The notes beneath the pieces were generated by a model that was given only the letters and a program-made list of their open reading frames with translations, was not told where the DNA came from and did no database searches. Shown one piece after another: positions 57 to 62,331 of a stretch of DNA of 64,000 nucleotides (position 1 is its first letter; each line of letters begins with the position of its first letter). The DNA lies in assembly GCA_020630915.1 (NCBI GenBank), contig JAHDIF010000004.1, positions 186,001 to 250,000 of the forward strand. Reading direction: 5' to 3'. The position numbers were made by a program, and so were the translations under genes. This stretch comes from Dokdonia sp. GTDB taxonomy: Bacteria; Bacteroidota; Bacteroidia; Flavobacteriales; Flavobacteriaceae.

Positions 57-76
57 TACGCTTTCGCGAAAGCGTA
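57..76. repeat. Family A palindrome, 20-bp perfect copy
   Basis: TACGCTTTCGCGAAAGCGTA is a perfect 20-bp palindrome 64 bases upstream of the recA start. No T tract follows, so it does not look like a terminator. It is the longest form of the dispersed palindrome found throughout this window; the shared 14-bp core is at 60-73. Confidence 0.95.
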
Positions 77-140
77 TCTTGCCCTCCTTTAAAAGAAAGC
101 TTATTTTTACTACTCTATTGTACATTCAAAAAAAAGCATA

Positions 141-1148
141 ATGAGTAAAGAAAAAGATGCCAAATTAAAGGCACTCCAACTTACCCTTGATAAATTAGAT
201 AAGACCTACGGAAAAGGTACGGTAATGAAGATGGGAGACTCTGCCATAGAAGAGGTAGATTCAATCCCTACAGGTTCTTTAGGACTTGATGTTGCCCTAG
301 GCGTAGGAGGATATCCTAGAGGCCGAATTATAGAAATCTATGGTCCAGAATCTTCTGGTAAGACTACACTCACATTGCACGCCATAGCAGAAGCACAGAA
401 AAAAGGAGGAATCGCTGCATTTATTGATGCCGAGCACGCCTTTGATCGTTTCTATGCAGAAAAATTGAATGTAGATATCGAAAACCTTATCATATCACAA
501 CCTGATAATGGAGAGCAAGCTCTCGAGATTGCAGACAATTTAATACGCTCTGGAGCTATTGATATTATTGTCATTGATTCTGTCGCGGCACTTACCCCTA
601 AAAGTGAAATTGAAGGTGAGATGGGAGATTCTAAAATGGGGCTTCACGCGAGATTAATGTCTCAGGCACTACGTAAACTTACGGGCTCCATAAGCAAGAC
701 CAATTGTACGGTGTTTTTTATTAACCAGTTAAGAGAAAAGATCGGGGTAATGTTTGGAAACCCAGAAACCACCACAGGAGGAAATGCGCTAAAATTCTAT
801 GCGTCTGTAAGACTCGATATACGCCGCTCTACTCAAATAAAAGATAGCAATGCCGAGGTGCAAGGAAATAAAACTCGAGTAAAAGTGGTAAAAAACAAAG
901 TGGCACCACCTTTTAGAACAGCGGAGTTTGATATTATGTACGGACAAGGGATCTCTAAAGTAGGTGAGATCATTGATATAGGAGTGAACTACGAAATCAT
1001 CAAAAAAGCAGGCTCTTGGTTCTCTTACCAAGACACAAAACTAGGTCAAGGGCGCGATGCGGTAAAAGCATTGTTATTAGACAATCCAGATCTTATGGAT
1101 GAACTAGAAACCAAAATACACGAAGCTATTAAAATAGCGGCAGAATAA
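141..1148 (+). CDS. recA: RecA recombinase
   Basis: RecA forms ATP-dependent filaments on single-stranded DNA, drives homologous strand exchange and activates the SOS co-protease response in the cytoplasm. The 335-residue product has the normal length. Walker A is GPESSGKT at residues 68-75 and the Walker B strand is around 141-147 (IIVIDS). The loop-2 region includes [17 protein letters not shown], a family signature. The ATG at 141 gives the expected N-terminus; no Shine-Dalgarno sequence is visible, as is usual in Bacteroidetes. It appears monocistronic, ending in a strong hairpin terminator. I could not recognise an SOS operator upstream. Confidence 0.98.
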
Positions 1149-1150
1149 TT

Positions 1151-1178
1151 AAAAACCTCCCACCACTGGGAGGTTTTT
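1151..1178 (+). terminator. Intrinsic terminator of recA
   Basis: A 12-bp perfect stem (AAAAACCTCCCA / TGGGAGGTTTTT) with loop CCAC begins 2 bases after the recA stop and ends in a T run. Confidence 0.95.
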
Positions 1179-1237
1179 CCTTTTAGAACGCAACCTTTGG
1201 AGATATTACGCATCTATGGAATAGATTATCCCCCTAG

Positions 1238-1654: not shown

Positions 1655-1675
1655 ATACTAACCAATAAAGCCAAT

Positions 1676-3910: not shown

Positions 3911-3924
3911 GCTTTCGCGAAAGC
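3911..3924. repeat. Family A palindrome
   Basis: A perfect GCTTTCGCGAAAGC core lies 5 bases beyond the stop codon of the minus-strand plsC gene, in the convergent intergenic region. Confidence 0.95.
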
Positions 3925-7112: not shown

Positions 7113-8042
7113 ATGCGTGCACTACTAATCTTCTTATGCCTTCTATTACTAGGAGCGTGTAAGCCCTATCAATCTACCACAATGAGACCGGATCAATTGA
7201 GTTATGATCGCTTTCGCGAAAGCCAGAAAAAGTTCTCCTCCTCAGAAGGAACCATTGCCTATATAGATAAAGGTCAAGGCCCAGTGATTATGCTTCTCCA
7301 TGGAGTACCTACCTCTGGCTGGCTGTATAGAAAGATGATAGATCCTCTTGTAGATGCAGGATATAGAGTAATTGCACCAGATATGCTAGGCTTTGGAAGC
7401 AGTGATTCCCCAAAAGGATATGAAATTTATTCTGAAGAGTTGCACGCACAGCGATTACTAGAATTGATGGCGCACCTCAATATTAATTCTTGGACCCACG
7501 TTATGCACGACGCGGGCGGCTTATGGACTTGGGAACTCCTTGAACAAGATCCTAAAAAAATAGATAATCTCGTTATTCTCAATAGTATTATTTACGAAGA
7601 AGGTTTTGACCCACCTATACGATTTGAGCCAGGTTTTATGGCACGCACAGCCATGTGGAGTTACAGAAATGGAATTACCACAAATATGATGCTCAAAGGA
7701 TTATTTAAGTCTGGAATGCAGGAAAATACTCTCAACAAAGATGATATAGCTGGCTATAAAACGCCTTTGAAAGAAGGTAAAACAAGGGCGATGTACTACT
7801 TTTTTACACAAACTTGTAATGCACTGCCTGAGTACCAGCCTATGATTCAAAAAATAGATATTCCTACGACAGTTATTTGGGGCAAGAATGATTCATTTTT
7901 AAAACTATCTCCACAACAAGAAGCGCTAGCAAATGACCTCAATATTAAAGAAGAAAATATCCATTTATTAGATGCCAAGCATTTTATCCAGGAGGAAAAA
8001 CCCCAAGAAATAGTTGATCTAATTACCTCTTTTTTACGATAA
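7113..8042 (+). CDS. Alpha/beta-hydrolase lipoprotein with aspartate nucleophile
   Basis: The 309-residue product has a lipoprotein signal (LLLGAC, lipidated C16) and an alpha/beta-hydrolase domain. The oxyanion region is LLHGVPTSGW (H63). The nucleophile elbow reads MHDAGG, placing aspartate D133 where esterases have serine. D260 (WGKNDSF) and H290 (DAKHFIQEE) fit the acid and the histidine. Aspartate nucleophiles and the HFIQEE ending are typical of haloalkane dehalogenases and epoxide hydrolases, but the tryptophan that usually follows the nucleophile in dehalogenases is alanine here, so the substrate is open. A family A palindrome encodes residues 33-37 (RFRES), between the lipid anchor and the enzyme domain. 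It converges with the next gene, the stop codons being back to back. Confidence 0.85.
   Translation: MRALLIFLCLLLLGACKPYQSTTMRPDQLSYDRFRESQKKFSSSEGTIAYIDKGQGPVIMLLHGVPTSGWLYRKMIDPLVDAGYRVIAPDMLGFGSSDSPKGYEIYSEELHAQRLLELMAHLNINSWTHVMHDAGGLWTWELLEQDPKKIDNLVILNSIIYEEGFDPPIRFEPGFMARTAMWSYRNGITTNMMLKGLFKSGMQENTLNKDDIAGYKTPLKEGKTRAMYYFFTQTCNALPEYQPMIQKIDIPTTVIWGKNDSFLKLSPQQEALANDLNIKEENIHLLDAKHFIQEEKPQEIVDLITSFLR
7210..7223. repeat. Family A palindrome inside the hydrolase gene
   Basis: A perfect 14-bp core, read in the frame encoding RFRES, in the linker between lipoprotein signal and catalytic domain. Confidence 0.95.
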
Positions 8043-8247: not shown

Positions 8248-9939
8248 TTATTTAATATCTTTTAATCGCAACTGTAAACTCACTTCATTATTCCACTCGT
8301 TTTCGTCTAGTGAGTAGGCTGCCATAAACGGCTTTTGATTCGTGATTAACTCATGCTTATCTCCTAAGTTAAATCCTATCCCGCCTATTCTTGATTCTTT
8401 TCCATGTTGTGCAACAGTGACTTTAAGGTGCGTTTCTTCTGCCCCTACTTTTTTACCATATCCTGTGTCTACGAGATTTTTAGTCATAAAGGTAGGACGC
8501 ATATTCCCAGGCCCAAAGGGTGCAAATTGTTTCAAAATTCGATAAAATTTAGGCGTAATCTGGTCTAGATTTATTTCTGTATCAATTCTTATCTCTGGGA
8601 CTAGTAATCGTTCATCACAAGTTTGAGAAACTACTTCTTCAAATCGTGCTTTAAACTTAGGGTAGTCCTCCTCTCTAAGTGTAAGACCAGCAGCATACTT
8701 GTGTCCCCCAAACTGCTCTATAAATTCATCGCAGGCGTGTAGCGCATTATATACATCAAACCCTTTTACTGATCTCGCTGAAGCTGCAAGTTTATCTCCA
8801 CTTTTAGTAAAAACTAAGGTCGGGCGGTAATAGGTCTCTGTAAGTCGTGAGGCTACGATACCTATAACGCCCTTGTGCCAATCTTCTTGATAAACAACCG
8901 TAGTTTTCTTGTCTTCTTCTTTATATGCTTTAATTTGGGCTAGTGCCTCTTCAGTTATTTGCTTATCAGCTTCTTTTCGGTCTGTATTATACTGTTCAAT
9001 TTCTATGGCATACTGGCAGGCCGCATCATAATCTGTCTCTGTGAGCAGGGTTACTGCGTGATTCCCGTGTTTCATTCTTCCGGCCGCATTGATTCTAGGA
9101 GCAATAATAAAAACCACATCGGTAATGGTGAGTGTTTGCTTTTTTACTTGTTTTATGATCGCTTCAAACCCTGGACGAGGTGCTTCATTAATCACTTGTA
9201 ACCCATAATATGCAAGGATTCTGTTTTCACCTGTTATAGGTACAATATCTGCACCTATGGCTGTGGCTACAAGATCTAGATAGGGATGGAGTTCTTGTAA
9301 ATTTTGCTTTCGCGAAAGCGCAATACCACTGATGAGTTTAAATCCGACTCCACAACCGCATAACTCGTCATATGGATAGTGACAGTCCTCTCTTTTTGGG
9401 TCTAGAATTGCAACAGCAGCTGGTAATTGATCTCCTGGTCTGTGATGGTCACAAATGATAAAATCTACTCCCTTTTCTTTGGCGTAAGCTACTTTATCAA
9501 TCGCTTTTACTCCACAATCGAGTGCAATGATAAGTGTTATATCATTATCTGCTGCATAGTCTATACCAGCATAAGACACGCCGTAACCTTCTGCGTAGCG
9601 ATCTGGGATATATGTAGCCACTTGAGGTGTTATAGTTTTAAGATACGAGCTTACTAGAGCCACACTCGTTGTTCCGTCTACATCGTAATCCCCAAAAACA
9701 AGTATGTTTTCTCCTTGCTCAATTGCAAGCAGGATTCGAGTCACTGCTTTGTCCATATCTCGCATTAAGAATGGATCGTGTAGCTCCTCTAAAGAGGGTC
9801 TAAAAAAAGATTTTGCCTTATCGTAGGTATCTATGCTGCGCTGTAAAAGTAAACTTGCTATTGAGAGATCTACTTGCAGCTTTGTGGCAAGTTTTTGAAC
9901 ATCCTCTTGAGAAGGCTTAGGTTGTAAAGTCCAACGCAT
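8248..9939 (-). CDS. recJ: Single-stranded-DNA-specific exonuclease RecJ
   Basis: RecJ degrades single-stranded DNA 5' to 3' in recombinational and mismatch repair. The 563-residue product has the DHH-family motifs: GDYDVDGTTS (D84, D86, D88), CDHHRPG (D164-H166) and the DHHA1 region with the conserved GGHKYAAGL. Length is normal. The gene directly abuts the upstream SPOR-domain gene, with 0 bases between stop and start. A family A palindrome encodes LSRK in a variable loop near residue 208 (IALSRKQNLQEL). Bacteroidetes RecJ normally lacks a special extension here, so the copy looks tolerated rather than functional for the enzyme. Confidence 0.96.
   Translation of the reverse strand: MRWTLQPKPSQEDVQKLATKLQVDLSIASLLLQRSIDTYDKAKSFFRPSLEELHDPFLMRDMDKAVTRILLAIEQGENILVFGDYDVDGTTSVALVSSYLKTITPQVATYIPDRYAEGYGVSYAGIDYAADNDITLIIALDCGVKAIDKVAYAKEKGVDFIICDHHRPGDQLPAAVAILDPKREDCHYPYDELCGCGVGFKLISGIALSRKQNLQELHPYLDLVATAIGADIVPITGENRILAYYGLQVINEAPRPGFEAIIKQVKKQTLTITDVVFIIAPRINAAGRMKHGNHAVTLLTETDYDAACQYAIEIEQYNTDRKEADKQITEEALAQIKAYKEEDKKTTVVYQEDWHKGVIGIVASRLTETYYRPTLVFTKSGDKLAASARSVKGFDVYNALHACDEFIEQFGGHKYAAGLTLREEDYPKFKARFEEVVSQTCDERLLVPEIRIDTEINLDQITPKFYRILKQFAPFGPGNMRPTFMTKNLVDTGYGKKVGAEETHLKVTVAQHGKESRIGGIGFNLGDKHELITNQKPFMAAYSLDENEWNNEVSLQLRLKDIK
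9306..9319. repeat. Family A palindrome inside recJ
   Basis: A perfect 14-bp core read on the minus strand in the frame encoding LSRK, in a variable loop of RecJ. Confidence 0.95.
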
Positions 9940-14857: not shown

Positions 14858-17800
14858 ATGAGCGCTAAGTTCACTGAATATAAAGGATTAAACCTTCCGC
14901 AAGTAGCAAATGATGTACTTGAATTCTGGAAGAAAAATAAGGTGTTTGAAAAAAGTGTATCAGAGCGCGAAGGTGCAACACCCTACATCTTTTTTGAAGG
15001 ACCACCTAGTGCAAATGGACTTCCTGGTGTGCATCACGTGCTAGCACGCGCTATAAAAGACATCTTCCCACGCTATAAAACCATGAAAGGGTTTCAAGTA
15101 AAACGTAAGGCCGGGTGGGATACACACGGTCTTCCCGTAGAACTTGGTGTAGAAAAAGAACTGGGGATAACTAAAGAAGATATTGGTAAGAAAATCACCG
15201 TAGAAGAGTATAACGAAGCTTGTAAAAAAGCAGTCATGCGTTATACAGATATCTGGAACGACCTTACTGAAAAAATGGGCTATTGGGTAGATATGGATGA
15301 TCCCTACATCACCTACAAATCCAAGTATATGGAGACCGTATGGTGGTTGCTCAAAAACATATACAACAAAGATTTACTGTATAAAGGCTACACCATACAA
15401 CCATATTCTCCTAAAGCAGGAACAGGCTTAAGCTCGCACGAACTCAATCAGCCAGGTTGCTATAGAGATGTTACAGATACTACGGTTGTAGCGCAGTTTA
15501 AAATTACTAATCAGGGTAATAACCCACTTGCTCAGGAACTAGCAGATGGACAAACCTATTTCTTAGCTTGGACGACCACACCTTGGACCTTGCCTTCTAA
15601 CACGGCACTTACCGTTGGTAAGAAAATAGACTACGTGCTGGTGGAGACCTATAACCAGTATACTTTTGAGCCTGTAAAAGTGATTCTTGCCAAAGCACTA
15701 GTTTCTAAACAGTTTGATAAAAAGTTTGTTTCCGCTTCCGCGAAAGAAGAATTAGACACCTACACAGCGGGTGATAAAAAGATCCCTTATTTCGTTGTAG
15801 GAGAATTTAAAGGTGCCGACCTTCTAGAATTGCGTTACGAGCAGTTGTTTGACTTTGTGCAACCTAATGACAATCCTCAAGATGCATTTAGAGTAATTGC
15901 AGGAGACTTTGTCACTACAGAAGACGGTACAGGTATCGTGCACACGGCACCTACTTTTGGGGCAGATGATGCCTTGGTAGCCAAGCAAGCTTCTCCAGAA
16001 ATTCCGCCATTGCTCATTAAAGATGAGAACGGAAACTTAGTGCCGCTTGTAGATCTTCAAGGTAAATTTCGCCCCGAGCTCAAAGAATTTGGTAACAAGT
16101 ACATCAAAAACGAATATTACAACGAAGGTGAAGCACCAGACAAGTCTATGGACGTAGAGCTTGCCATACGTTTAAAAGAAGAAAATAAAGCCTTTAAGGT
16201 AGAGAAGTATGTGCACAGCTATCCTCACTGCTGGCGTACGGACAAGCCTGTATTGTATTATCCGTTAGACTCTTGGTTTATTAAAGTGACAGACTTTAAA
16301 GACCGTATGCACGAGCTTAATCTAGGTATTAACTGGAAGCCTAAAGCCACAGGAGAAGGCCGTTTTGGGAACTGGCTGGCAAATGCAAATGACTGGAACC
16401 TGTCTCGTAGCCGTTTCTGGGGGATTCCATTACCTATCTGGCGTACAGAAGATGGAAAAGAAGAAGTCCTTATAGGCTCTATAGCAGAGCTTAAAGCCGA
16501 AATCCAAAAAGCCATAGACAAAGGTGTGATGGATAGTGATCCTTTTGAAGGATTTAAAGTAGGCGATATGAGCGAGGCAAATTACCAGCTCGTAGACCTT
16601 CATAAAAACGTGGTAGATCGTATTACGCTTGTTTCAGAGAGTGGACAGCCTATGAAGCGTGAGGCAGACCTTATAGATGTATGGTTTGACTCAGGATCTA
16701 TGCCATATGCACAATGGCACTACCCTTTTGAAAATAAAGAACTCGTAGAAAACACTTGGCGCAAGGCAGATTTTATTGCAGAAGGTGTAGACCAGACTCG
16801 TGGTTGGTTTTATACACTGCACGCTATTGGTACTATAACCTTTGACGATGTGGCATACAAAAACGTCGTTTCTAACGGACTTGTCCTGGACAAAAACGGC
16901 CAGAAAATGTCCAAGCGACTTGGCAATGCAGTAGACCCGTTTGAGACCTTATCTACCTATGGAGCAGATGCCACGCGCTGGTATATGATAAGCAACGCAA
17001 ACCCTTGGGATAACCTCAAGTTTGACCTAGAGGGAATAGAAGAGGTAAAACGCAAGTTCTTCGGGACATTATATAATACCTATGGTTTCTTTGCGCTGTA
17101 TGCAAATCTGGATAATTTCGCTTTCGCGGAAGCGGACATACCCTTAGAAAAACGTCCAGAAATAGACAGATGGATCTTATCAGAACTACACTCGCTTATT
17201 GCTAAAGTAGATCGTTTCTATGCTGAATATGAGCCTACAAAAGCAACTCGAGCGATTGATAAATTTGTACAGGAAAACCTCTCTAACTGGTTTGTGCGTC
17301 TCTCTAGAAGACGTTTCTGGAAAGGCAGCTATGGAGAAGACAAGATAAGCGCTTACCAAACACTCTATACGTGTTTAGTAACCGTTGCAAAACTAGGAGC
17401 GCCTGTAGCGCCATTTTTTATGGAGCGTTTGTATAAAGATCTGAATGCAGTTTCTGGAAAAGAAGATTTTGATAGTGTACATCTGTCACATTTTCCAAAA
17501 AGTGATACTAATTACATAGATACGGCGTTAGAGCACAAGATGCAAAAGGCACAAACGGTGAGTTCATTAACGTTATCACTAAGAGCAAAAGAAAAGATAA
17601 AAGTGCGCCAGCCATTGCAACGTATTATGATACCGGTGCTTAATGATGCAGATAAAGAAGAAATTCTTGCCGTTTCTGACCTCATAAAATCTGAGGTTAA
17701 TGTAAAGGAGATTGAGCTTATAAGTGACGATTCTGGTATTTTGGTAAAACAAATAAAGCCTAACTTTAAGGTGCTGGGACCACGCTTTGGGAAGAATATG

Positions 17801-18269: not shown

Positions 18270-18650
18270 ATGGCAACGACTAAAGAAAGATACAGCGATG
18301 CAGAATTAGAAAGCTTTCGCGAAATTATTCAATCAAAGATTGACAAAGCACAACACGATTTAGAGCTTATAAAGAGTGCGTATCTTAATGATGGCACAAA
18401 CGGTACTGATGACACCTCTCCTACTTTTAAGTCTTTTGAAGAAGGTAGCGCTACGATGAGCAAGGAAGCAAATAGCGCACTTGCTATACGACAAGAAAAG
18501 TTTATTCGTGATCTTAAAAATGCTCTTGTACGTATTAACAATAAAACCTATGGAATTTGTCGTGTAACTGGGAAGCTTATTAATCCCGAGCGATTAAAGT
18601 TAGTTCCTCACGCTACACTAAGTATTGAGGCAAAAAATATGCAGAGTTAA
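18270..18650 (+). CDS. TraR/DksA family protein with degenerate zinc finger
   Basis: DksA-type proteins bind the RNA polymerase secondary channel through a coiled coil and modulate transcription, often with ppGpp. The 126-residue product has the long coiled-coil N-terminus (about residues 8-80, KERYSDAELESFREIIQSKIDKAQ...). The C-terminal signature is YGICRVTGKLINPERLKLVPHAT. Only one cysteine of the usual C4 zinc site remains, so zinc binding is unlikely. It lies 4 bases after ileS and before lspA, an order I know from other flavobacteria. A terminator follows. A degenerate palindrome encodes ESFRE. Confidence 0.88.
   Translation: MATTKERYSDAELESFREIIQSKIDKAQHDLELIKSAYLNDGTNGTDDTSPTFKSFEEGSATMSKEANSALAIRQEKFIRDLKNALVRINNKTYGICRVTGKLINPERLKLVPHATLSIEAKNMQS
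18313..18326. repeat. Degenerate family A palindrome in the dksA-like gene
   Basis: GCTTTCGCGAAATT matches 12 of 14 positions. It is read in the RFRES frame (SFREI). Confidence 0.5.
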
Positions 18651-18696: not shown

Positions 18697-19314
18697 ATGA
18701 AATACGTCTTTCTTTTAATACTTATACCTATTGGTCTTTTTGCTCAAAAAAAGGTAGAACAAACTTTTGATATTGAAGGTCTCAAAGCGATTGTAATTGA
18801 TAGTGATCTCATTTTTAAAATTACGATGCATACACAACCTGTAACATTTATCCAACTCAATACGGTTGTAGATGGAGAGACCTACGCCAGCACCCTTGTA
18901 AATACAAAAGTGGTGGATGACCGTCTAGAAATACGTACAGGTCGCACTCCAGATTTTACCCCTTTTAACGATAAGTTATCTGCTCACAAAGTACTCTCTA
19001 TAGAACTCGAGATGATCATTCCAGAAAATATGAATGTCGATATAAGGTCTACCCTAGCAGAAGTCAATCTAAACGGGCTGTATGGAAAGTTACAAATTGA
19101 TTTGGGCAGAGGAGGGTTGATAGGTAGAGGTGTACGCTTTCGCGAAAGCGTAATTAACACCATGTCTGGCAATATTACAATAGCCCTTACAGAAGCAAAT
19201 GTTACTGCTCTTTCTAGAAATGGCTCGAGAAATGTCGCTACTGTTTTTAACGAAGGTCCTCCTTGTATTATTCAAACTATACATGGGGATATTGATGTGC
19301 TCCAAGTAAAGTAA
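18697..19314 (+). CDS. Secreted DUF4097-like beta-helix/adhesin-like protein
   Basis: The 205-residue product has a short signal peptide (about residues 1-16, ending in GLFAQ). The domain is a run of beta strands of the kind found in DUF4097/DUF2807 proteins (VNLNGLYGKLQIDLGRGGL, VINTMSGNITIALTEANV, IQTIHGDIDVLQVK). These form right-handed beta-solenoids of unknown function. It is 31 bases upstream of lspA. The palindrome at 19133-19152 encodes VRFRESV in one of the turns, lengthening a turn by a few residues. Confidence 0.75.
   Translation: MKYVFLLILIPIGLFAQKKVEQTFDIEGLKAIVIDSDLIFKITMHTQPVTFIQLNTVVDGETYASTLVNTKVVDDRLEIRTGRTPDFTPFNDKLSAHKVLSIELEMIIPENMNVDIRSTLAEVNLNGLYGKLQIDLGRGGLIGRGVRFRESVINTMSGNITIALTEANVTALSRNGSRNVATVFNEGPPCIIQTIHGDIDVLQVK
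19133..19152. repeat. Family A palindrome, 20-bp perfect copy inside a gene
   Basis: TACGCTTTCGCGAAAGCGTA is identical over all 20 bp to the copy upstream of recA. It is read in the RFRES frame. Confidence 0.95.
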
Positions 19315-24102: not shown

Positions 24103-24116
24103 GCTTTCGCGAAAGC
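24103..24116. repeat. Family A palindrome between rimK and uvrC
   Basis: A perfect 14-bp core (extended ACGCTTTCGCGAAAGCGC) in the divergent intergenic region, 29 bases upstream of the uvrC ATG. Confidence 0.95.
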
Positions 24117-30572: not shown

Positions 30573-31054
30573 TATTCAAATATTAAGTTTTGTTTTGTTT
30601 TTAGTTGTTCGATGTTTACGCTATATGCGGTAACTATCTGTGGTATTTGGTTAATTTCTTTTAGGATTTTTGCTTTCGCGAAAGCGCAACCGTCATCATA
30701 AATTTTAAGTAAGTAGTCTACTTTAGGTAGGTCATTTATAAAAAATTCACTGATTACATCATTACTCTGCTTATCAAATAGTCCTAGAGAGGCGTATTTA
30801 AGCTTGGACTTTGTTTTGTTATTGAAAAAATAATACGTTGCATATTGTTGCAAATCTTCATATTCGAATAGTGCAAAATTTGCCGTATATCCATCTTTAC
30901 TAAGCACCAAGTCTTTTTTGGTTCTTGATAATTTTAATTTAAGATTTTTGTTGAGTAAATAAGCTATGTGATAGGCCTCTAAGGAGGTGTGAATAGCTAT
31001 TAATGTAAAGTCATAGCCTAAGTCATCATCTAATAAGAGCTTATAGGTCCCCAT
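30572..31054 (-). CDS. IPExxxVDY family protein
   Basis: The 160-residue product has no signal peptide or membrane helix. The hallmark region is FFINDLPKVDYLLKI (about residues 104-118), a variant of the motif naming the family, which is known only from Bacteroidetes. Its function is unknown. It commonly sits between rnc and pyk, as here, and its stop overlaps the pyk start. A family A palindrome encodes CAFAKAK just after the motif. A LacI-type operator-like palindrome lies 68 bases upstream of its ATG. Confidence 0.83.
   Translation of the reverse strand: MGTYKLLLDDDLGYDFTLIAIHTSLEAYHIAYLLNKNLKLKLSRTKKDLVLSKDGYTANFALFEYEDLQQYATYYFFNNKTKSKLKYASLGLFDKQSNDVISEFFINDLPKVDYLLKIYDDGCAFAKAKILKEINQIPQIVTAYSVNIEQLKTKQNLIFE
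30672..30685. repeat. Family A palindrome inside the IPExxxVDY gene
   Basis: A perfect 14-bp core read on the minus strand in the AFAKA frame. Confidence 0.95.
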
Positions 31055-35274: not shown

Positions 35275-35859
35275 ATGAAACGAATTGTGATTTTTGCCTC
35301 AGGTAACGGTACAAATGCCCAGCGTATTATAGATCATTTTAAGGGTCGTACGGATGCTCAAGTCGTGCAAGTGCTCAGTAACAACAAGAGTGCCAAAGTT
35401 CTGGAACGTGCCAGCAATAGTAAGATAAGCGCCATATCGTTTAATAGAACTGCCTTTTATAAAACAGACCATATCCTAAATTTACTCAAGACTACACGGC
35501 CAGACCTCATTGTCTTGGCGGGCTTTTTATGGTTGTTCCCAGAAGATATCATTCGGGCATTTCCAGATAATGTTATTAATATTCATCCAGCCCTATTGCC
35601 AGATTTTGGAGGTAAAGGAATGTATGGCAAGTATGTGCATGAGGCAGTTTACGCTTTCGCGAAAGCGCACCCAAAACAAAAAACACATACTGGAATCACC
35701 ATTCATAAAGTAACCCCAGAGTACGATAAAGGCGAATTTTTATTTCAAGCCAAAGTAGAAGTAACAAGAGATGACACTCCAGAAAGTATTGCTGAGAAAG
35801 TACATAAGCTTGAGTATAAACATTTTCCTGAGGTGATTGAGAAAATCCTGATCACATAA
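35275..35859 (+). CDS. purN: Phosphoribosylglycinamide formyltransferase
   Basis: PurN transfers a formyl group from 10-formyl-THF to GAR in purine synthesis. From the ATG at 35275 the product is 194 residues starting MKRIVIFASGNGTN, the usual opening. A start at 35242 would add 11 unrelated residues. The catalytic set is N102, H104 (INIHPALLP) and D151 (PEYDKGEF). A family A palindrome encodes AFAKA at 127-131, in the variable loop before the THTGITIH strand. It is divergent from acpP. Confidence 0.96.
   Translation: MKRIVIFASGNGTNAQRIIDHFKGRTDAQVVQVLSNNKSAKVLERASNSKISAISFNRTAFYKTDHILNLLKTTRPDLIVLAGFLWLFPEDIIRAFPDNVINIHPALLPDFGGKGMYGKYVHEAVYAFAKAHPKQKTHTGITIHKVTPEYDKGEFLFQAKVEVTRDDTPESIAEKVHKLEYKHFPEVIEKILIT
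35653..35666. repeat. Family A palindrome inside purN
   Basis: A perfect 14-bp core (extended TTACGCTTTCGCGAAAGCGC) read in the AFAKA frame, in a loop that varies in length among PurN proteins. Confidence 0.95.
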
Positions 35860-37266: not shown

Positions 37267-37280
37267 GCTTTCGCCAAAGC
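37267..37280. repeat. Near-perfect family A palindrome upstream of the pfkB-like gene
   Basis: GCTTTCGCCAAAGC matches 13 of 14 positions. It ends 7 bases before a putative -7 promoter box. Confidence 0.8.
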
Positions 37281-41329: not shown

Positions 41330-41343
41330 GCTTTCGCGAAAGC
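41330..41343. repeat. Family A palindrome between sod and addA-like genes
   Basis: A perfect 14-bp core, extended on the left as TTACGC, in the divergent intergenic region. Confidence 0.95.
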
Positions 41344-41490: not shown

Positions 41491-41501
41491 ATCTTAGTAC
41501 A

Positions 41502-44500
41502 ATGGCTATGCACTCTTCTATTTCTATATACAACGCATCTGCGGGCTCTGGCAAAACATATAGCCTTGTGAAGGACTATATTAAAGCCTTGTTGATGAGT
41601 AACACAAAAAACAAGCACCGTCACCTATTAGCTATTACTTTTACCAATAAAGCTGTTGCAGAGATGAAAGAGCGGGTTCTCTCGACTCTAGAAAACTTTG
41701 CTTCTTACCAAGATAAAGAAGAAAAGGTCCCCACAATGCTTGTTGATATTGCCTCAGATACTGGCATGAGTCATAAAAAAATAGCTTCAAAGGCTTCTCT
41801 AATTATTACAGAAATTCTGCACAACTATGCCTCCTTTGATATCGTTACCATAGACACCCTTACTCATAGAATATTGCGAACTTTTTCTAAAGATTTGGAT
41901 CTTTCTGGAAATTTTGAAGTTTCGCTGGATTCCAAGTCATTGTTATCTAAGGCCGTAGACAGAGTGATAGACAAAACAGGAACAGATAAAAAAATTACGG
42001 CAGTACTAGTAAATTATGCTCTTCAAAAAGCAGATGATGACAAAGACTGGAATATCGCACGCGACTTAAATGACATCGCCGCACTTCTCGATCGAGAAAA
42101 TGATGCCGTGGCAATGGCTACAATGAATGCAAAAACTCTAGGCGACTTTGAAAAACTCTCTATCAAATTATCTGAAAATAAAACAACCTTAATAACCCAA
42201 ATAAAAGAAAAAGCACAAACCTTACTAGACACATTTCTTTCTCAAGGCATAGAGGCATCTCATTTTAGCCGAAAGACTTTTTACAATCACGTTTCCAAGC
42301 TAGCACAAGACCCGCTTGCTGTAAAATTTGAACCAAAAAGTACATGGAAAAATGATATTGAAAACTATAGTTTTTATAACAAAACTACTGACGAGAATGC
42401 AAAGGCTCTAATTGATTCATCAAGAGATCGTCTTATTGCCTTTTTTAATGAAACAAAATCGTTGTTTTATCAAATTAAAAAAGTTGTTGAGTTTCAGAAA
42501 AAACTGGTTCCCCTCTCTACACTTCAACTAATAGGTGCAGAATTGCAAGCCATTAAAGCAGAAGAGAATATTTTGCTCATTTCAGACTTTAATAGCATTA
42601 TACATAGGTCTTTAAAAGAACAACCTGCTGCTTTTATATACGAAAGACTTGGGGAGCGCTATACGAATTACTTTATTGACGAATTTCAGGACACCTCTGT
42701 GCTTCAATGGGAAAATCTTATTTCTCTTATAGAAAACGCTCTTGTTTCTGAAAGTAAAGATACTGTTCCCAATAGTTTATTAATAGTAGGTGATCCCAAA
42801 CAAGCTATTTACAGATGGCGCGGTGGTAAGGCGGAGCAGTTTATAGCTTTAGCTCAAAAGAAACTGCCATTTCACTCACAAGAGGCCTCTATTATACAAC
42901 TGGCAACAAACTATAGGAGTCATAAAGAAGTAATTGCATTTAACAATTCCTTCTTTACGCATATCGCACAGTATTTTGATTCTGACATACACAGGGATAT
43001 TTATTTACAGGACAATAACCAGGGATACAACAGCAGGCTTGACGGTTTTGTCTCTATAGATTTTATTGAGGCTCAGACCACCCTTGAAGCAGATGAAATA
43101 TATCCAGAAAAAGTATTGGATATCATTAATAGTGTATCTCAAGAAGGCTTTGAGAGGAGTGATATTTGTATCCTTGTTAGAAATAATAAGAATGGGGCAC
43201 ATATGGCACAGTTTCTAGCAGAGAAAAAAGTACCTGTCGTATCCTCAGATAGCCTATTGCTTAAAAAATCTGCAACCGTTCTCTTTATTCACGATATTTT
43301 ACAATTACAACAACATCCTGACACTATCGCCATAGCCATTAGGGTTTTGATGTTCTTAGCGCAAACTCACAATGTAGAGGACACGCACGTATTTCTCAAC
43401 AACTGGCTTACCGACGATAGTGTAAGTTTACAATCCTATCTCGAAGAATTAAATATTTATTTTTCTTCTAAAGTTTTTGCCTCATTGCCACTATATGAAG
43501 GCGTAGAATACATTATTCGATCCTTTAATCTCATAGATCAAGCAGATGCTTATGTTAACGGATATTTAGAAGCTGTTTTTAGTTACACAAATTCTAAAAA
43601 TCTAGGTCTTATTGGGTTCTTACAACATTGGGAGGAGAAAAAAGACGTTTTAAGTATAGACGCCCCATTGCAAAAGGGTGCTGTACAGATTATGACAATT
43701 CACAAATCTAAAGGTCTAGAGTTCCCTATTGTCATTTTTCCATATGCAGACGCAAATATTTACCGCACAAACAATGAACATCACTGGTATAGTGTTCCAG
43801 AAGAAGATTTTGCCGGCTTCTCAAAACTCATGGTAGGCCATTCATCTAGTCTTCAAAATTACAGCACGCAAGGAGAGTCACTTTACCTCTCAAGGAGAAG
43901 AGAGCAACAGTTTGACGCAATAAATGTTTTGTACGTTGCACTCACAAGAGCTATAGAGCGATTGTATGTTTTATCACGCTTTCGCGAAAGCGTACCTCTT
44001 GAAAACTACGGCGACCTTTTTATAGACTTTCTAAAAACCACCGGAAAATGGCAAGAAGGACAACTCCACTACACCTTTGGAAGAGAAACAAGGGCGCAAG
44101 AATATAAAAAGGGTGTGCAGGAAACGGTGAGTATTCCTTTTACCTCTTCAGAGAAAGAGAAGCATAATATTAAAATAATAACTCGCAAAGGACTTGTACT
44201 AGACCAAAATAGAGCAGATGCTATTTCTTATGGAAATTTGCTTCATGAGATGCTGGCACTGGTTAAAACGCCTGAAGACATCGATAAGGCTCTTGCCTAT
44301 TTTGTTTCTGACGGACAGGTCTTACAGTCAGAAACAACTCCTTTTAGGATAACCTTAGAGATGGTTACAAATCACCCAGAGCTTAAAAATGCTTTTAGTA
44401 AAGAGGTGACAGTTTATAATGAAAAAGCTATTCTCACGAAAGAAGGATCAGTATTTATTCCTGATAGGATAGTGCTTTTTCCAGATGATACTGTTATTAT

Positions 44501-50180: not shown

Positions 50181-50191
50181 TTGTATTCTTG

Positions 50192-50265
50192 TGGAGAAGA
50201 TGGGATTCGAACCCACGACCTCTTGACTGCCAGTCAAGCGCTCTAGCCAACTGAGCTACATCCCC
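50192..50265 (-). tRNA. tRNA-Ala, anticodon GGC
   Basis: The 74-base gene reads GGGGATGTAGCTCAG... on the minus strand. The D arm is GCTC/GAGC, the anticodon stem CTTGA/TCAAG with loop CTGGCAG (anticodon GGC) and the T arm contains GGTTCGAATCC. The G3-U70 wobble that marks alanine tRNAs is present. CCA is not encoded. The family A palindrome lies 8 bases upstream of its 5' end. Confidence 0.96.
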
Positions 50266-50273: not shown

Positions 50274-50287
50274 GCTTTCGCGAAAGC
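50274..50287. repeat. Family A palindrome between usp and the tRNA-Ala gene
   Basis: A perfect 14-bp core located between the usp stop and the 5' end of the tRNA gene. Confidence 0.95.
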
Positions 50288-51141: not shown

Positions 51142-51645
51142 GTGATTGAACACGCAAAAATTTCGGAAATACCTGAAATTCTGAGACTCACAAGAGCATG
51201 TGCTCAGGCAATGATCGCAAATGGCATATACCAATGGAATGAGCATTACCCCTCTAAAGGAGCTTTTGAAAACGATATTAAGCGAGAAGAATTATATGTC
51301 CTCAAACAAAACAACCTCATCATAGGGACGATCGTCATTTCTAATTTTATGGATGAAGAGTATGCACCTATTGAGTGGCTTACCCCAAACGAAAACAACT
51401 TTTATATCCATAGGCTATCTGTACATCCAGAGCGTCAAGGAAAAGGCTATGCGCGACAGTTAATGGATTATGCAGAAGCTTTCGCGAAAGCAAAAAAAGC
51501 CACCTCCATACGGCTGGACACCTTTAGCCAAAACCAAAGAAACCAACGTTTTTACGAGGCTCGTGGATATCAAAGATTAGGTAACATCTTTTTTCCGAAA
51601 CAAAGTGAACATCCGTTTTACTGCTACGAACTCGTATGGGAATAG
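51142..51645 (+). CDS. GNAT family N-acetyltransferase
   Basis: The 167-residue product starts at GTG 51142. It has the GNAT acetyl-CoA site IHRLSVHPERQGKGYARQLM (Q-x-x-G-x-A loop at about residues 99-105) and the C-terminal QRFYEARGYQRLG. The substrate is unknown. It overlaps the MATE gene by 10 bases, so the two are coupled. A palindrome encodes EAFAKAK just after the acetyl-CoA helix. Confidence 0.9.
   Translation: MIEHAKISEIPEILRLTRACAQAMIANGIYQWNEHYPSKGAFENDIKREELYVLKQNNLIIGTIVISNFMDEEYAPIEWLTPNENNFYIHRLSVHPERQGKGYARQLMDYAEAFAKAKKATSIRLDTFSQNQRNQRFYEARGYQRLGNIFFPKQSEHPFYCYELVWE
51478..51491. repeat. Family A palindrome inside the GNAT gene
   Basis: A perfect 14-bp core read in the AFAKA frame, at the end of the helix following the acetyl-CoA loop. 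Confidence 0.95.
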
Positions 51646-54937: not shown

Positions 54938-54951
54938 GCTTTCGCGAAAGC
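54938..54951. repeat. Family A palindrome upstream of the MBL hydrolase gene
   Basis: A perfect 14-bp core, 22 bases before the ATG at 54974. The outer flanks AGTA/TACT extend the symmetry apart from one mismatch pair. Confidence 0.95.
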
Positions 54952-57516: not shown

Positions 57517-59358
57517 ATGAATAATCTTCTTAAACTTATAGGTTGTGTGGTAATATTCGCTTTCGCGAAAGCGGACTCCTTTGCACAAAACACTTCTTAC
57601 TGGCAACAACATGTCGATTACAAAATGGAAATCGACATGAATGTAAATAACTATCAGTACGATGGAAAACAAGAGCTTGTGTATACCAACAACTCTCCAG
57701 ACACCCTTACTCAGGTTTTCTATCACCTGTACTTTAATGCGTTCCAACCTGGAAGTGAGATGGATGTACGATCACTTACGATCGAAGACGCAGATCGTCG
57801 TGTGGCAGACCGTATCAGTAAGTTAAAAGAAGATGAAATAGGATTTATTAAAGTAAATGCGCTTAAACAGGATGGGAAAAAGCTGGCGTATGAAGTCGCT
57901 GGAACCGTCCTTGAAGTGCAACTAGAAAAACCAATCGCTCCAGGTGAAAAGACCACTTTTAATATGGATTTTAAAGGGCAAGTGCCTGTGCAAATTCGTC
58001 GTAGTGGTCGTAATAATAAAGAAGGTGTGGCATTATCTATGACGCAATGGTATCCTAAAATGGCCGAATATGATTTTGAAGGATGGCACGCAGATCCTTA
58101 TATCGCTCGTGAGTTTCACGGTGTATGGGGAGATTTTGATGTAAAAATCACCATTGATGGAGATTATACCGTAGGAGGTACAGGATATCTTCAAAACGGA
58201 AATGAAGTAGGTCACGGATATCAAGACGCAGGAGTTACACCTGCAAAAACCAAAAAAGGAAAATACACATGGCACTTTAAAGCGCCTAATGTGCACGACT
58301 TTACTTGGGCGGCAGATCCAGAATATGTGCACGACACCCTAGAGGCAGAAAACGGTGTAAAACTGCACTTTTTGTACAAAAATGATCCAGAAATTAAGGA
58401 TAACTGGAAAAAGCTACAGCCTAAGACGGCGGCTATCCTTTCGTACCTCAACAAACACATAGGGCAATATCCATACAAGCAATACTCTGTAATACAAGGA
58501 GGAGATGGTGGTATGGAGTATGCGATGTGTACACTTATTACAGGAAAACGCAACTTTGGGAGTCTTGTAGGTGTGACTGCGCACGAATTTGCCCATACAT
58601 GGTTTCAGTTTTTACTGGCAACTAATGAAGCAAAACATGAGTGGATGGATGAAGGCTTTACCTCTTACATAAGTGCAGCCGCTATGAATGAAGTAATGGA
58701 CTCTAATAAAGAAAACCCTTGGACGGGAAGCTACAGAGGATACTACCGCCTAGCAACTAGCGGTAAAGAACAACCACAAACTACGCATGCAGATCGCTAT
58801 AACCTAAACAGTGTGTATGGAGCAGCAGCTTACAGCAAAGGAGCTGTGTTTATGGCACAATTAAACTATGTGATAGGAAAAGAAAACGTAGCAAAAACAC
58901 TTAAAAAGTATTTTAATGACTTTGCTTTTAAACACCCTACTCCTAACGACATCAAACGTACAGCAGAGAAAGTTTCTGTCATGCAACTAGACTGGTATCT
59001 TACAGACTGGACACAAACCACAAATACGATAGACTACGCCATCGAAAAGGTAGAGGAAAAAGATGGGAAGACACAGGTTACGCTTTCGCGAAAAGGACTC
59101 ATGCCTATGCCTATTGATCTATACGTTACGATGGGTAAAAAACAAGAATCCCATTACATCCCACTGCGTATGATGCGCGCTGAAAAGCCGAACCCCACAC
59201 CTGAAATTCCAAGAACCCAACAGGCAGACTGGCCGTGGACACACCCTACCTATACGTTTACCATAGACGCTCCATTAAAAAAGATAGATGGATTACAGAT
59301 AGATCCTTCTGGGCTTATGGCAGATGTTAACCCAGATGATAATACTTGGAAAAAGTAG
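57517..59358 (+). CDS. M1 family metallopeptidase
   Basis: A secreted zinc aminopeptidase-type enzyme of 613 residues. The zinc site is HEFAH (H356, E357, H360) plus E379 in WMDEGFTSY. The substrate-binding exopeptidase motif is GGMEYAMC (about 331-338). A signal peptide covers about residues 1-24 and ends SFAQ. The family A palindrome encodes AFAKA at residues 15-19, putting a lysine and an aspartate close to the cleavage site. It follows the subtilase gene after 3 bases and has a terminator. Confidence 0.94.
   Translation: MNNLLKLIGCVVIFAFAKADSFAQNTSYWQQHVDYKMEIDMNVNNYQYDGKQELVYTNNSPDTLTQVFYHLYFNAFQPGSEMDVRSLTIEDADRRVADRISKLKEDEIGFIKVNALKQDGKKLAYEVAGTVLEVQLEKPIAPGEKTTFNMDFKGQVPVQIRRSGRNNKEGVALSMTQWYPKMAEYDFEGWHADPYIAREFHGVWGDFDVKITIDGDYTVGGTGYLQNGNEVGHGYQDAGVTPAKTKKGKYTWHFKAPNVHDFTWAADPEYVHDTLEAENGVKLHFLYKNDPEIKDNWKKLQPKTAAILSYLNKHIGQYPYKQYSVIQGGDGGMEYAMCTLITGKRNFGSLVGVTAHEFAHTWFQFLLATNEAKHEWMDEGFTSYISAAAMNEVMDSNKENPWTGSYRGYYRLATSGKEQPQTTHADRYNLNSVYGAAAYSKGAVFMAQLNYVIGKENVAKTLKKYFNDFAFKHPTPNDIKRTAEKVSVMQLDWYLTDWTQTTNTIDYAIEKVEEKDGKTQVTLSRKGLMPMPIDLYVTMGKKQESHYIPLRMMRAEKPNPTPEIPRTQQADWPWTHPTYTFTIDAPLKKIDGLQIDPSGLMADVNPDDNTWKK
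57559..57572. repeat. Family A palindrome inside the M1 peptidase signal peptide
   Basis: A perfect 14-bp core (CGCTTTCGCGAAAGCG extended) in the AFAKA frame, in the C-terminal part of the signal sequence. Confidence 0.95.
59082..59095. repeat. Degenerate family A palindrome in the M1 peptidase gene
   Basis: GCTTTCGCGAAAAG matches 12 of 14 positions. It is read in the LSRK frame (VTLSRKG). Confidence 0.6.
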
Positions 59359-59837: not shown

Positions 59838-60636
59838 TATATGTGTGTTATTTTCTTGTGAGAATGGCAATAGTGCCTTTACAAAAGATGGAGATATTTC
59901 GATGTCACCTGCTTTTGAGATGGCTGATGACCTAGAAGAAATAGTGTTTGAACAAAATTTTAAAACAGCTCCTTCTAAACAGGTTGAACAAAAAATAATC
60001 AAAACAGGTAACTTGCGTTTTGAAACTCAAGAATTAGAGAAAACAAGAACTAGAATTGTTGCTGCCGTAAAAAAAGCTGGAGGTTATATTCAAAGTGATA
60101 ACAGCGGTAAAAACTACGATTCGCACTATCAGAATTTAACCATACGCGTCCCCTCTCAACAATTTGATACTGTTTTTACAGAAATAGGTGAAGGTGTTGC
60201 TTACTTTGATGAAAAAACCGTCTCACAAAGAGACGTTACAGAAGAGTTTGTAGACATACAAGCACGTCTCAAGGCAAAACGTGCTCTAGAAGAAAGATAT
60301 TTAGCCCTTCTAGTTAAGGCTAAAAATGTACAGGAAATGCTTTCCATAGAACGTGAGTTGGCCAATATTAGAGAAGAAATAGAGAGTAGAGAAGGTAGGT
60401 TAAAGTACCTCCAGAGTCAGGTTTCTGAAAGCACCATACACATTAGCATTTACAAAACAACTGTAGAAACCGGCGTAACCATTTCATACGGTACGAAAAT
60501 CATAAATGCCCTTAAAGGAGGTTGGAATGGCGTGTCTGTTTTCTTCCTTGGTTTGCTGCACCTCTGGCCTTTTCTTATATTAGTAGGCGCAGGCGTTTTT
60601 TTTATGCGCAGATATATTAGAAAAAAGAAAAAATAA
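59812..60636 (+). CDS. DUF4349 membrane lipoprotein
   Basis: The 274-residue product has a lipobox (VLFSC, lipidated C16) and a DUF4349 domain (KIIKTGNLRFETQELEKT, TIRVPSQQFD, TEEFVDIQARLKAKRALEERY). A coiled-coil stretch lies at about 150-205. A C-terminal transmembrane helix with a basic tail follows (about 242-274, RRYIRKKKK). The function is unknown. Its start lies inside rnpA, so expression is probably coupled. Confidence 0.88.
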   Translation: MKQLVLLLSICVLFSCENGNSAFTKDGDISMSPAFEMADDLEEIVFEQNFKTAPSKQVEQKIIKTGNLRFETQELEKTRTRIVAAVKKAGGYIQSDNSGKNYDSHYQNLTIRVPSQQFDTVFTEIGEGVAYFDEKTVSQRDVTEEFVDIQARLKAKRALEERYLALLVKAKNVQEMLSIERELANIREEIESREGRLKYLQSQVSESTIHISIYKTTVETGVTISYGTKIINALKGGWNGVSVFFLGLLHLWPFLILVGAGVFFMRRYIRKKKK

Positions 60637-60650
60637 GCTTTCGCGAAAGC
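60637..60650. repeat. Family A palindrome downstream of the DUF4349 gene
   Basis: A perfect 14-bp core extended to AGCTTTCGCGAAAGCT, beginning at the base after the DUF4349 stop codon. Confidence 0.95.
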
Positions 60651-60679
60651 TAAAAAACAAATGTGAAGATGTGGATGAG

Positions 60680-60699
60680 ATATCCGCCTTCGCGGATAT
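60680..60699. repeat. Hairpin in the S41 protease leader
   Basis: A perfect 8-bp stem (ATATCCGC / GCGGATAT) with a 4-base loop, 9 bases before the S41 ATG. No T tract follows, so it is a leader hairpin or another repeat type. Confidence 0.7.
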
Positions 60700-60708
60700 T
60701 AATTAGAT

Positions 60709-62331
60709 ATGAAAAAAAAGATGTTCATCCCCATACTAGCAGTAGCCACTTTGCTAGGTACCGTAAGTTTTCAAAGTGACTTTTTTGAAATTGCTAAGCA
60801 AATAGAAATATTTACCACGTTGTATAAGGAGGTAAATATGAACTATGTAGACGAGACCAACCCTGCAGAGCTTATGGATAATGCTATAGAAGGCATGCTG
60901 GAGGGTTTAGATCCTTACACAAAATATTGGACTGAGCAGGAGGTAGAAGATGCAAAAATTAACAATAGCGGTGATTATTCTGGAATAGGGGCTACCGTAC
61001 GTCGCAAAGACAAAAAAATGACCATCATAGAGCCTCGTAAAGGATACCCGGCAGATATGGCTGGCCTTAAAGCGGGAGATCAAATCACGAAAATAGGTGA
61101 TATTGTAGTCTCAGAAGTTGAGGGAGATGCGGGTGACCTTCTCAAAGGGGCTCCTGGAAGCAGTGTAGAGATAACCTACTTGCGCCAAGGAAAGAAAAAC
61201 ACGACCACTATAAAACGTAGTGCTGTAGAGATAGATGCTGTACCTTTTTATGAAATGATTGACGAGACTACTGGATACATTGTCCTTTCTAAATTTAATC
61301 GAAAAGCATCTGCGCAAGTTCAAGAAGCCCTAGAGAGTTTAAAAACAGATGGAGCTACATCTATCGTACTCGACTTACGAGGTAATCCAGGAGGCCTTCT
61401 TAATGAGGCTGTGAAAATTTGTGGCATATTTCTTCCTAAAGGATCACTCATCACTACGACAAAATCTGCAGTAAAAAAGTACAATAAGACCTATAAGACT
61501 ACTAATGACCCCATTGACACAGAAATACCTGTAGCTGTTCTAATAAATAGCCGTAGCGCCTCTGCTAGTGAGATTGTTTCAGGTAGTTTACAAGATTATG
61601 ACAGGGCAGTGGTAATAGGAGCCCGCAGCTTTGGTAAAGGACTTGTGCAACGCCCTAAGCCGCTTACGTATGGCACTCAACTTAAAGTGACCATATCAAG
61701 ATACTACACTCCAAGCGGGCGCTGTATACAAGCACTAGATTACTGGAACCGTGATGAGCAAGGAAACGCTGTGCGCACAGATGAAAAAGACTTCAAAGAG
61801 TTTAGAACTAAAAACGGTCGTAAAGTTTTTGATGGTGGAGGTGTTTTTCCAGATATAGAGATATCGTCTGCAAAAACAAGTGCTATTACCAAGGCGCTTT
61901 TAAAGGACAATGCCATTTTTGAATATGCTACAAAGTACTACTACGATCATCAGTACAGTGATCTCAGTGAGTTCTCGTTTTCAGACGCCGATTATGGCGC
62001 GTTTAAAAATTTCCTACAACAGACGGGGTTTACCTATGAGACGGAGACGGAAAGTGCTTTCGCGAAAGCGTTACAGCAGGCGGAAAAAGATGGGCTTGAT
62101 AAAACTATAAGTAGCGCGTATACCAACTTACAAAACACCATTACCCAAGCAAAAAATCAAGAGCTGGACACCCATAAAGACGAGATACAAACAGAACTAA
62201 TAGACGAGATTGTAAAAAGGTATTTTTATCGAGACGGACTCTACGCGTATCACATACAGAATAGTCCCGAAATAGCCGAAGCAAAAGCAGTACTATCTGA
62301 TCAAAAACGTTACACTAAAATTTTAAAATAA
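60709..62331 (+). CDS. S41 family C-terminal processing peptidase
   Basis: A periplasmic tail-specific protease. The 540-residue product has an N-terminal signal/anchor (about 5-20) and a PDZ domain (about 85-160, SGIGATVRRKDKKMTI). The catalytic region has SRSASASEIVSG (serine at 285 or 287) and the lysine K310 in SFGKGLVQ. A C-terminal helical extension of about 150 residues follows. A palindrome encodes SAFAKAL in that extension. Its stop is 4 bases before the apparent start of the OmpA-type gene. Confidence 0.94.
   Translation: MKKKMFIPILAVATLLGTVSFQSDFFEIAKQIEIFTTLYKEVNMNYVDETNPAELMDNAIEGMLEGLDPYTKYWTEQEVEDAKINNSGDYSGIGATVRRKDKKMTIIEPRKGYPADMAGLKAGDQITKIGDIVVSEVEGDAGDLLKGAPGSSVEITYLRQGKKNTTTIKRSAVEIDAVPFYEMIDETTGYIVLSKFNRKASAQVQEALESLKTDGATSIVLDLRGNPGGLLNEAVKICGIFLPKGSLITTTKSAVKKYNKTYKTTNDPIDTEIPVAVLINSRSASASEIVSGSLQDYDRAVVIGARSFGKGLVQRPKPLTYGTQLKVTISRYYTPSGRCIQALDYWNRDEQGNAVRTDEKDFKEFRTKNGRKVFDGGGVFPDIEISSAKTSAITKALLKDNAIFEYATKYYYDHQYSDLSEFSFSDADYGAFKNFLQQTGFTYETETESAFAKALQQAEKDGLDKTISSAYTNLQNTITQAKNQELDTHKDEIQTELIDEIVKRYFYRDGLYAYHIQNSPEIAEAKAVLSDQKRYTKILK
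62056..62069. repeat. Family A palindrome inside the S41 protease gene
   Basis: A perfect 14-bp core read in the AFAKA frame, in the helical C-terminal extension. Confidence 0.95.

Follow-up and report, generated by a model that had tools for sequence, protein, structure and literature searches.

Repeated chromosomal sequences that invite comparison with the element described here include the uptake signal sequences (USS) of Pasteurellaceae, the DNA uptake sequences (DUS) of Neisseriaceae, the highly iterated palindrome HIP1 (GCGATCGC) and alternate HIPs of cyanobacteria, Chi with RecBCD/AddAB, and the matS, parS, Noc and SlmA sites. Chi occurs about once per 4-5 kb, and the sites of the last group number in the tens of copies and are regional. 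The USS of Haemophilus influenzae are described as a core with weaker flanks, and Karlin is quoted as having reported their even spacing (PMC1939737). We analysed a 14-bp perfect palindrome, GCTTTCGCGAAAGC, that recurs along a 64,000-nt stretch ("the window") of Dokdonia sp. contig JAHDIF010000004.1. The signal is genuine, is either selected or driven, and is common to chromosome, phages and genomic islands; we lean, tentatively and by analogy, toward a genome-wide DNA uptake or self-recognition signal like those of Haemophilus and Neisseria, but palindromic and found in a family in which competence is independent of pili.

All 16 exact copies listed in a preliminary description of the window were verified at their positions, and seven degenerate copies, the minimum claimed there, were counted at up to two mismatches (three with one mismatch, four with two). 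These 23 matches compare with a mean of 0.22, at up to two mismatches, in dinucleotide shuffles of the window. The copies are not confined to the window: the source genome (2,967,236 bases in 18 contigs) holds 685, and a reversed-pattern control gave none. A genome sample of 464 kb, made up of the window and 20 stretches of 20 kb, contains 117 exact copies, far above the 0.001 expected from a third-order Markov model, the comparison that had been proposed as a check; near-misses number 18 with one mismatch, 23 with two and 44 with three. The 14-mer consists of two overlapping GCGAAAGC 8-mers, one on each strand, and 16 of the 18 occurrences of that 8-mer on the top strand of the window lie inside it. 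The 8-mer is reported to form an unusually stable DNA mini-hairpin.

Among 59 genomes searched, 20 gave a match and 39 none. All 18 genomes of the source's Dokdonia-like genus in that search held 369-905 copies each, some of these genomes being incomplete, while a genome of another genus (G027) held 578 and a further one (G029) held 6, all on one contig. A draw of 397 genomes from the family, partly overlapping with this search, gave matches in 80 and more than 19 copies in only six, namely two of the source genus, three of genus g11 (578, 664 and 609 copies) and one of g210 (G230, 408 copies). The remaining 74 had 1-19 copies, and the reversed control had one hit in one genome. The comparison with related genera thus finds the motif abundant throughout the genus and in g11 and g210, and present in 0-19 copies in other family members. 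In a quick RecJ tree, the RecJ of the window, which is 79% identical to that of two uncultured Dokdonia metagenome-assembled genomes, groups among them; G230 forms the sister lineage of the Dokdonia group with a support of 97, and g11 sits on a separate long branch. The separation of g11 from Dokdonia and G230 points to two gains, a transfer or many losses in the history of the motif. Across the twelve genus genomes that are at least 99% complete (2.9-5.5 Mb, 570-905 copies), copy number shows no clear rise with genome size (r = 0.27, n = 12) and site density falls with it (r = -0.80, n = 12). The four largest genomes (G011, G014, G015 and G016) are grouped in the RecJ tree, so kinship confounds the size trend.

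The 14-mer is shown to form the centre of a larger symmetric site, about 56 bp long, whose arms reach to about 28 bp from the centre and are poor in C on the 5' strand. At 275 genus sites, the positions just outside the core on the 5' side prefer C (-8), A (-9) and T (-10), so that core and flanks together form a soft 20-bp palindrome, TAC-core-GTA. The earlier remark that copies often extend to TACG...CGTA is right in that such flanks are common; they are soft, however, both being present at 47 of 319 genus sites. Between -11 and about -28, the 275 sites are T/G-rich on the 5' strand, with C at 0.02 to 0.15 against about 0.18 further out. The arms are present on both sides at 116 intergenic and 203 genic sites, the latter in all three frames. 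Arm composition varies with the state of the core: C in the 5' arm stands at 0.066 where the orthologous core is kept (417 comparisons), at 0.06 with one to three core mismatches (16 comparisons) and at 0.141 with four or more (92 comparisons), and identity between orthologs is at a background level of 0.63-0.80 at distances of more than 10 bp from the centre. It is their composition, rather than any sequence, that characterises the arms.

Conservation was followed in 13 genus genomes (60-64 kb in eleven of them, 20 and 13 kb in the other two). Genic sites yielded 681 directed ortholog comparisons, in which a species pair counts twice if both members have the site; 40 were unaligned, 18 gapped and 623 ungapped. 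The ungapped comparisons were identical at all 14 positions in 484 cases, against 223 of 3,063 control 14-mers drawn at random from the same genes and frames (50 draws were dropped for gaps). Those sites that could be mapped onto the window occupy 25 slots, some of which are common to 11 or 12 genomes. Slot 3903 is empty in four genomes in which slot 5857 or 5920 is filled. In recJ, the motif introduces three residues that are rare among 95 sequences from outside the genus, and in three genomes of one subclade the site is displaced by 6 bp; neither change alters the length of the gene. This alternation of slots and the recJ shift without length change point to what seems a requirement for a site in roughly this place, supplied by substitution. 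Where orthologs were compared, the alignments show point substitution both creating and maintaining the motif. Many identical palindromic copies in genic and intergenic positions would also be produced by a small mobile element of the REPIN/RAYT kind, inserted many times over. The copies have no common sequence past the core, however, with identity at background beyond about 10 bp, 623 of the 641 aligned comparisons are ungapped, and the recJ site consists of codon changes where a 14-base insertion would break frames. An insertion element was rejected on the ungapped orthologs and the background identity outside the core, and we regard it as the least probable of the explanations weighed here.

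In the 464-kb sample, 35 of the 117 copies do not lie wholly within an open reading frame (ORF), though only 8% of that sample is non-coding, a fourfold intergenic enrichment. ORFs of the window were called mechanically at a length of at least 90 aa; six exact copies fall outside them (those starting at 60, 3911, 41330, 50274, 54938 and 60637), and the copy at 24103 lies inside a TTG-start ORF but upstream of the first recognisable UvrC domain, which makes the previous count of seven intergenic copies out of 16 a fair one. The accompanying estimate that less than about a tenth of the window is non-coding agrees with a coding fraction of 0.92 in the sample. This enrichment, together with the hairpin that the single-stranded motif can form, would suit a dispersed regulatory site or a transcription terminator. 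Yet 82 of the 117 copies lie inside ORFs, 48 of them in one frame, reading GCT TTC GCG AAA GCn, and intergenic copies have similar densities in tandem (19 in 20.0 kb), divergent (9 in 7.5 kb) and convergent (6 in 5.5 kb) gaps. The flanks are the opposite of those of a terminator because, on the top strand, the 5' side is T/G-rich and the 3' side A/C-rich and not T-rich, in keeping with the original observation that no T tracts follow the copies. At gathering score, Rfam matches nothing in the window but the tRNA. A terminator or regulatory site was rejected on location and flanks, and we hold it to be highly improbable.

The sites are spaced far more evenly than random placement would give. 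The 113 gaps of the source-genome sample have a mean of 3.9 kb and a coefficient of variation (CV) of 0.62. Random placement gave 0.97, and not one of 5,000 simulations reached the observed evenness; when the intergenic and coding shares of sites were preserved, the lowest CV in 2,000 simulations was 0.73. The smallest gap is 610 bp, and gaps below 500 bp, of which 13.5 were expected, do not occur. Two other genomes gave similar results, with 66 gaps, a CV of 0.61 and a smallest gap of 606 bp in the first 230 kb of G017, and 32 gaps, a CV of 0.56 and a larger mean of 5.9 kb in G011; the CV for random placement was 0.93-0.98 across the three genomes. Elsewhere in the sampled G017 chromosome there are gaps of 501 and 537 bp, so the exclusion of close pairs is not sharp. 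The 41 near-misses with one or two mismatches shun exact sites (median distance 2.4 kb, against 1.1 kb for random points, p ~1e-6), and the closest pair of sites is 124 bp apart when near-misses are counted. The longest motif-free gap in the sample, 14.6 kb, holds a D12 adenine methyltransferase gene (L016:14909-15904) amid household genes, and a 249-aa ORF without a Pfam match adjoins that gene.

The single-contig chromosome of G017 has 3-9 sites in each of 20 spread 20-kb stretches and no visible trend. The suggested look at distribution relative to origin and terminus thus found no regional trend in 20 x 20 kb, the positions of origin and terminus not being located, and an origin/terminus system was rejected on this even sampling. 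The matS, parS, Noc and SlmA sites resemble the motif in being palindromes of similar length, but those are regional, whereas the motif reaches 570-905 copies in twelve genomes with no regional trend in the one chromosome sampled.

Candidate readers were sought in 15 carriers with a cut-off for each family, and AddB in 26 genomes. By distribution, none of the ParB, C5, N6_N4, D12, pilus/secretion ATPase and AddB families supplies a reader. No extra ParB-family paralogue was found in 14 of the 15 carriers (G011 has a second long protein), while ten non-carriers have one or two; a ParB/Noc paralogue was rejected as reader on the 14 carriers with no extra copy. The methyltransferase searches bear on the likeness to HIP1, another high-copy palindrome with GC ends that is built by substitution, which raises the idea that the motif is a by-product or target of methylation at the inner TCGCGA or CGCG of its CG-rich centre. 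The HIP literature links such repeats to DNA methyltransferases (PMC4390886). The motif differs from HIP1 in length (14 bp against at most 8), in density (1 per 4 kb against about 1 per kb) and in its soft arms, and no methyltransferase is common to the carriers among the three families tested: C5 exceeds its cut-off in six of the 15, N6_N4 in two (with two more below it) and D12 in nine. In three carriers (G006, G009 and G281) no member of the three families exceeds its cut-off; others, such as the Eco57I-like and type I enzymes, lay outside the search. In the window, TCGCGA seems not to be enriched outside the 14-mer, 16 of its 19 copies lying within it. We consider a HIP1-type origin highly improbable. 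The preliminary description had noted that the pattern recalls HIP1 or uptake/organisation sequences; strict HIP1 is unsupported for want of a common methyltransferase in the three families, and uptake/organisation has become the leading reading, though two of the uptake features looked for are missing.

The properties of the motif fit uptake signals better than they fit the other classes known to us, apart from its symmetry, its few one-off variants and surroundings that are no more permissive than elsewhere. It shares with USS hundreds to thousands of copies, even spacing, an exact core with weaker flanks, genic and intergenic sites, dialects and phage carriage (tested here on the Haemophilus phage HP1), and with DUS conservation in place and dialects between genera; its flank dialects differ between genera, to judge from few sites. 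Three features of uptake signals are accordingly seen here: hundreds of exact copies far above chance, even spacing in the three genomes sampled and conservation between orthologs. On the uptake reading, a two-fold symmetric DNA-binding receptor would read the site, most likely at the cell surface, as a component of the kind of transformation machinery without a pilus that is known in Flavobacteriaceae. DNA that carries the motif at intervals of a few kilobases would be taken up and recombined preferentially, and this preference would keep existing sites and recreate lost ones nearby. Even spacing would arise because a second site close by would bring no gain.

Several observations weigh against this reading. 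To our knowledge, known uptake signals are asymmetric 9-12-mers, none of them palindromic; the USS is an asymmetric 9-mer with one-sided flanks, unlike the palindromic 14-mer with its symmetric arms, and the DUS is unlike the motif in the same respect. Known uptake signals coexist with many one-off variants, whereas one-mismatch copies are scarce here (18 against 117 exact). We know of no ComP-type reader for the 14-mer and of no report of transformation in Dokdonia. The PilB/GspE/VirB11 ATPase exceeds its cut-off in only five of the 15 carriers and falls below it in ten, unlike in USS systems, and copy number does not track it; one expected feature, a PilB ATPase in all carriers, is thereby missing, which rules out the known pilus route in the majority of carriers. 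The other missing feature is more divergent surroundings, since DNA adjacent to the sites shows no excess of divergence over the remainder of the gene (0.718 vs 0.724, p 0.28, 75 sites), which differs from what is described around the DUS of Neisseria (PMC2397512). The lack of a pilus ATPase weighs less because Riemerella anatipestifer transforms by a machinery without pilus homologues, parts of which are widespread in Flavobacteriaceae (PMC8459023), and its absence was accordingly dropped as proof against uptake. Riemerella columbina, moreover, is described as preferring its own DNA (PMC7965970). In view of the general fit with uptake signals and of the transformation and own-DNA preference in Riemerella, we place uptake ahead of a reader inside the cell.

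A possible reading, which we rank second, is that the motif forms an intracellular array of binding sites, where a dimeric protein bound every few kilobases would serve chromosome upkeep, as boundaries of loop or supercoil domains or as a two-way Chi-like stop. Two-fold symmetry with symmetric arms, even spacing with no regional trend in the G017 stretches, strong conservation of individual sites and a recJ site that has moved 6 bp in one subclade at constant length all speak for it. In its Chi-like variant, a DNA-end-processing enzyme would be told to stop and to load RecA on the T/G-rich 5' arm. RecA has a wider preference for T/G-rich DNA. Its preference for TGG repeats in particular is described (PMC3763553), and Chi itself resembles the motif in density and in its T/G-rich 5' neighbourhood. 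Chi is short and asymmetric, however, whereas the motif is a perfect 14-bp palindrome, and AddB does not track the motif: it was found in all 26 genomes searched, and the AddBs of carriers form no clade. AddAB as sole explanation was rejected since the AddB tree does not unite the carriers. Against an array more generally stand the lack of a reader among the families tested, with no extra ParB paralogue in 14 of the 15 carriers, and a site number that does not clearly rise with genome size, which is odd for a fixed density. The fullest version, a new chromosome signal in which a dimeric reader inside the cell would recognise the site of about 56 bp every few kilobases with few close pairs, as a domain boundary or two-way end-processing stop imposed on phages and islands as well, is in our view possible but less likely than not.

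The motif also occurs in phages. Many of the viral-contig matches listed, a set biased to positives, have different flanks, occur in contigs of high GC content and appear fortuitous. Fourteen hand-picked records carry 1-7 copies each. Nine of these records, some of them near relatives, hold 39 sites at a mean of 7.1 kb per site, five records with 1-2 copies being excluded. Viral records G436-G446 (loci L165, L179, L196, L197, L219 and others) carry several copies each. The gene content of the phages includes Mu-like transposition proteins, portal proteins and an integrase, and their hosts are probably themselves carriers of the motif. Between related phages at 64-68% nucleotide identity, two of five sites are kept at 14/14 positions, one has one mismatch and two are not kept, a retention that would fit an array inside the cell. 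HP1, however, carries 17 USS 9-mers in 32.4 kb, near the density of its host, for which 1,471 are given in the H. influenzae genome (PMC1939737). Phage carriage therefore favours neither an array nor uptake, and it was dropped as proof of a role inside the cell since HP1 carries a true uptake signal too.

A family of copper/metal-resistance islands holds the motif in low-copy genomes of Flavobacteriaceae outside the carriers, of which seven (G029, G118, G127, G141, G254, G376 and G386; loci L119-L123 and L265-L274) were followed in the stretches round many of their copies. Family assignments were made for nine proteins of two of the islands, and the remaining islands are linked to these by proteins in common. 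The proteins that recur between stretches include a CusA-like pump, an outer-membrane efflux protein, a multicopper oxidase and a metal P-type ATPase. A pair of sites with a separation of 933 bp is present in four genomes. With the G118 island as reference, sites are kept at 14/14 positions in 10 of 14 comparisons in the efflux-protein gene (genes 70-88% identical), in 2 of 7 in the pump gene and in 2 of 5 in the ATPase gene. The flanks of 34 island copies are nearer to those of six g11 sites than to Dokdonia flanks. We read the island copies as DNA that probably evolved in carriers and then moved out.

The copies in the window are given in Table 1, in which a slot is a site position mapped onto the window across the genus genomes, with 13 genomes compared, or the 11 for which about 60 kb was available. 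A motif copy lies inside or adjoins each of recA, recJ, uvrC and the addA-like gene (60-50287), and one copy stands just beyond the tRNA that follows addB. The presence of the motif at repair genes may be chance or repair-gene enrichment, the latter reportedly being known for DUS.

Table 1. Exact copies and near-misses of the 14-mer in the window.
Feature	Positions	Location	Genomes with the slot
Exact 14-mer	60..73	67 bp upstream of recA (141-1148)	6/13, some stretches ending short of here
Exact 14-mer	3911..3924	Intergenic	9/13
Exact 14-mer	7210..7223	Within alpha/beta hydrolase gene (7113-8042)	2/13
Exact 14-mer	9306..9319	Within recJ (8248-9939, minus strand); formed by in-place codon change	12/13
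Near-miss, 2 mismatches	15734..15747		
Near-miss, 1 mismatch	17120..17133		
Near-miss, 2 mismatches	18313..18326		
Exact 14-mer	19136..19149	Within ORF 18697-19314 (no Pfam family)	11/11
Exact 14-mer	24103..24116	5' end of uvrC ORF (24038-25936)	8/11
Near-miss, 1 mismatch	26884..26897		Same slot exact in five congeners
Exact 14-mer	30672..30685	Within ORF 30572-31054 (minus strand, no Pfam family)	8/11
Exact 14-mer	35653..35666	Within formyl transferase gene (35242-35859)	7/11
Near-miss, 1 mismatch	37267..37280		
Near-miss, 2 mismatches	39499..39512		
Exact 14-mer	41330..41343	Intergenic, between sod (40587-41195) and addA-like gene	6/11
Exact 14-mer	43978..43991	Within UvrD-family helicase gene, addA-like (41421-44645)	11/11
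Exact 14-mer	50274..50287	Intergenic, by tRNA-Ala (50191-50265)	2/11, and 5 more about 83 bp off, perhaps the same slot
Exact 14-mer	51478..51491	Within GNAT acetyltransferase gene (51142-51645)	5/11
Exact 14-mer	54938..54951	Intergenic	8/11
Exact 14-mer	57559..57572	Near start of peptidase M1-like ORF (57517-59358)	4/11, some stretches ending short of here
Near-miss, 2 mismatches	59082..59095		
Exact 14-mer	60637..60650	Adjoins stop codon of ORF 59812-60636, on its 3' side	Own genome only, few compared stretches reaching here
Exact 14-mer	62056..62069	Within peptidase S41 gene (60709-62331)	Own genome only, few compared stretches reaching here

The 14-mer was found in no paper of the literature searched, which mostly leaves out subscription journals and so argues only weakly for its absence from print, and the inner 10-mer only in papers that are unrelated by title and the start of the abstract. 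Searches on Dokdonia palindromes, or on over-represented palindromes of Bacteroidetes, found nothing on the motif among the papers listed, and the main text of a HIP paper (PMC4390886) makes no mention of Bacteroidetes, Flavobacteri- or Dokdonia.

An uptake function would make the motif the first such signal known to us outside Pasteurellaceae and Neisseriaceae and the first palindromic one, and would connect it with an uptake machine of unexplained specificity that works without a pilus. If it is instead read inside the cell, it would be a spaced, chromosome-wide array of sites of a kind that, as far as we know, is undescribed in bacteria. The motif might serve to link phages to their hosts, and it may also flag DNA exported from these genera, the copper-resistance islands in seven other genomes being an example. 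Should it prove to be an uptake signal, competence and barriers between species would become open to testing in marine Bacteroidota.

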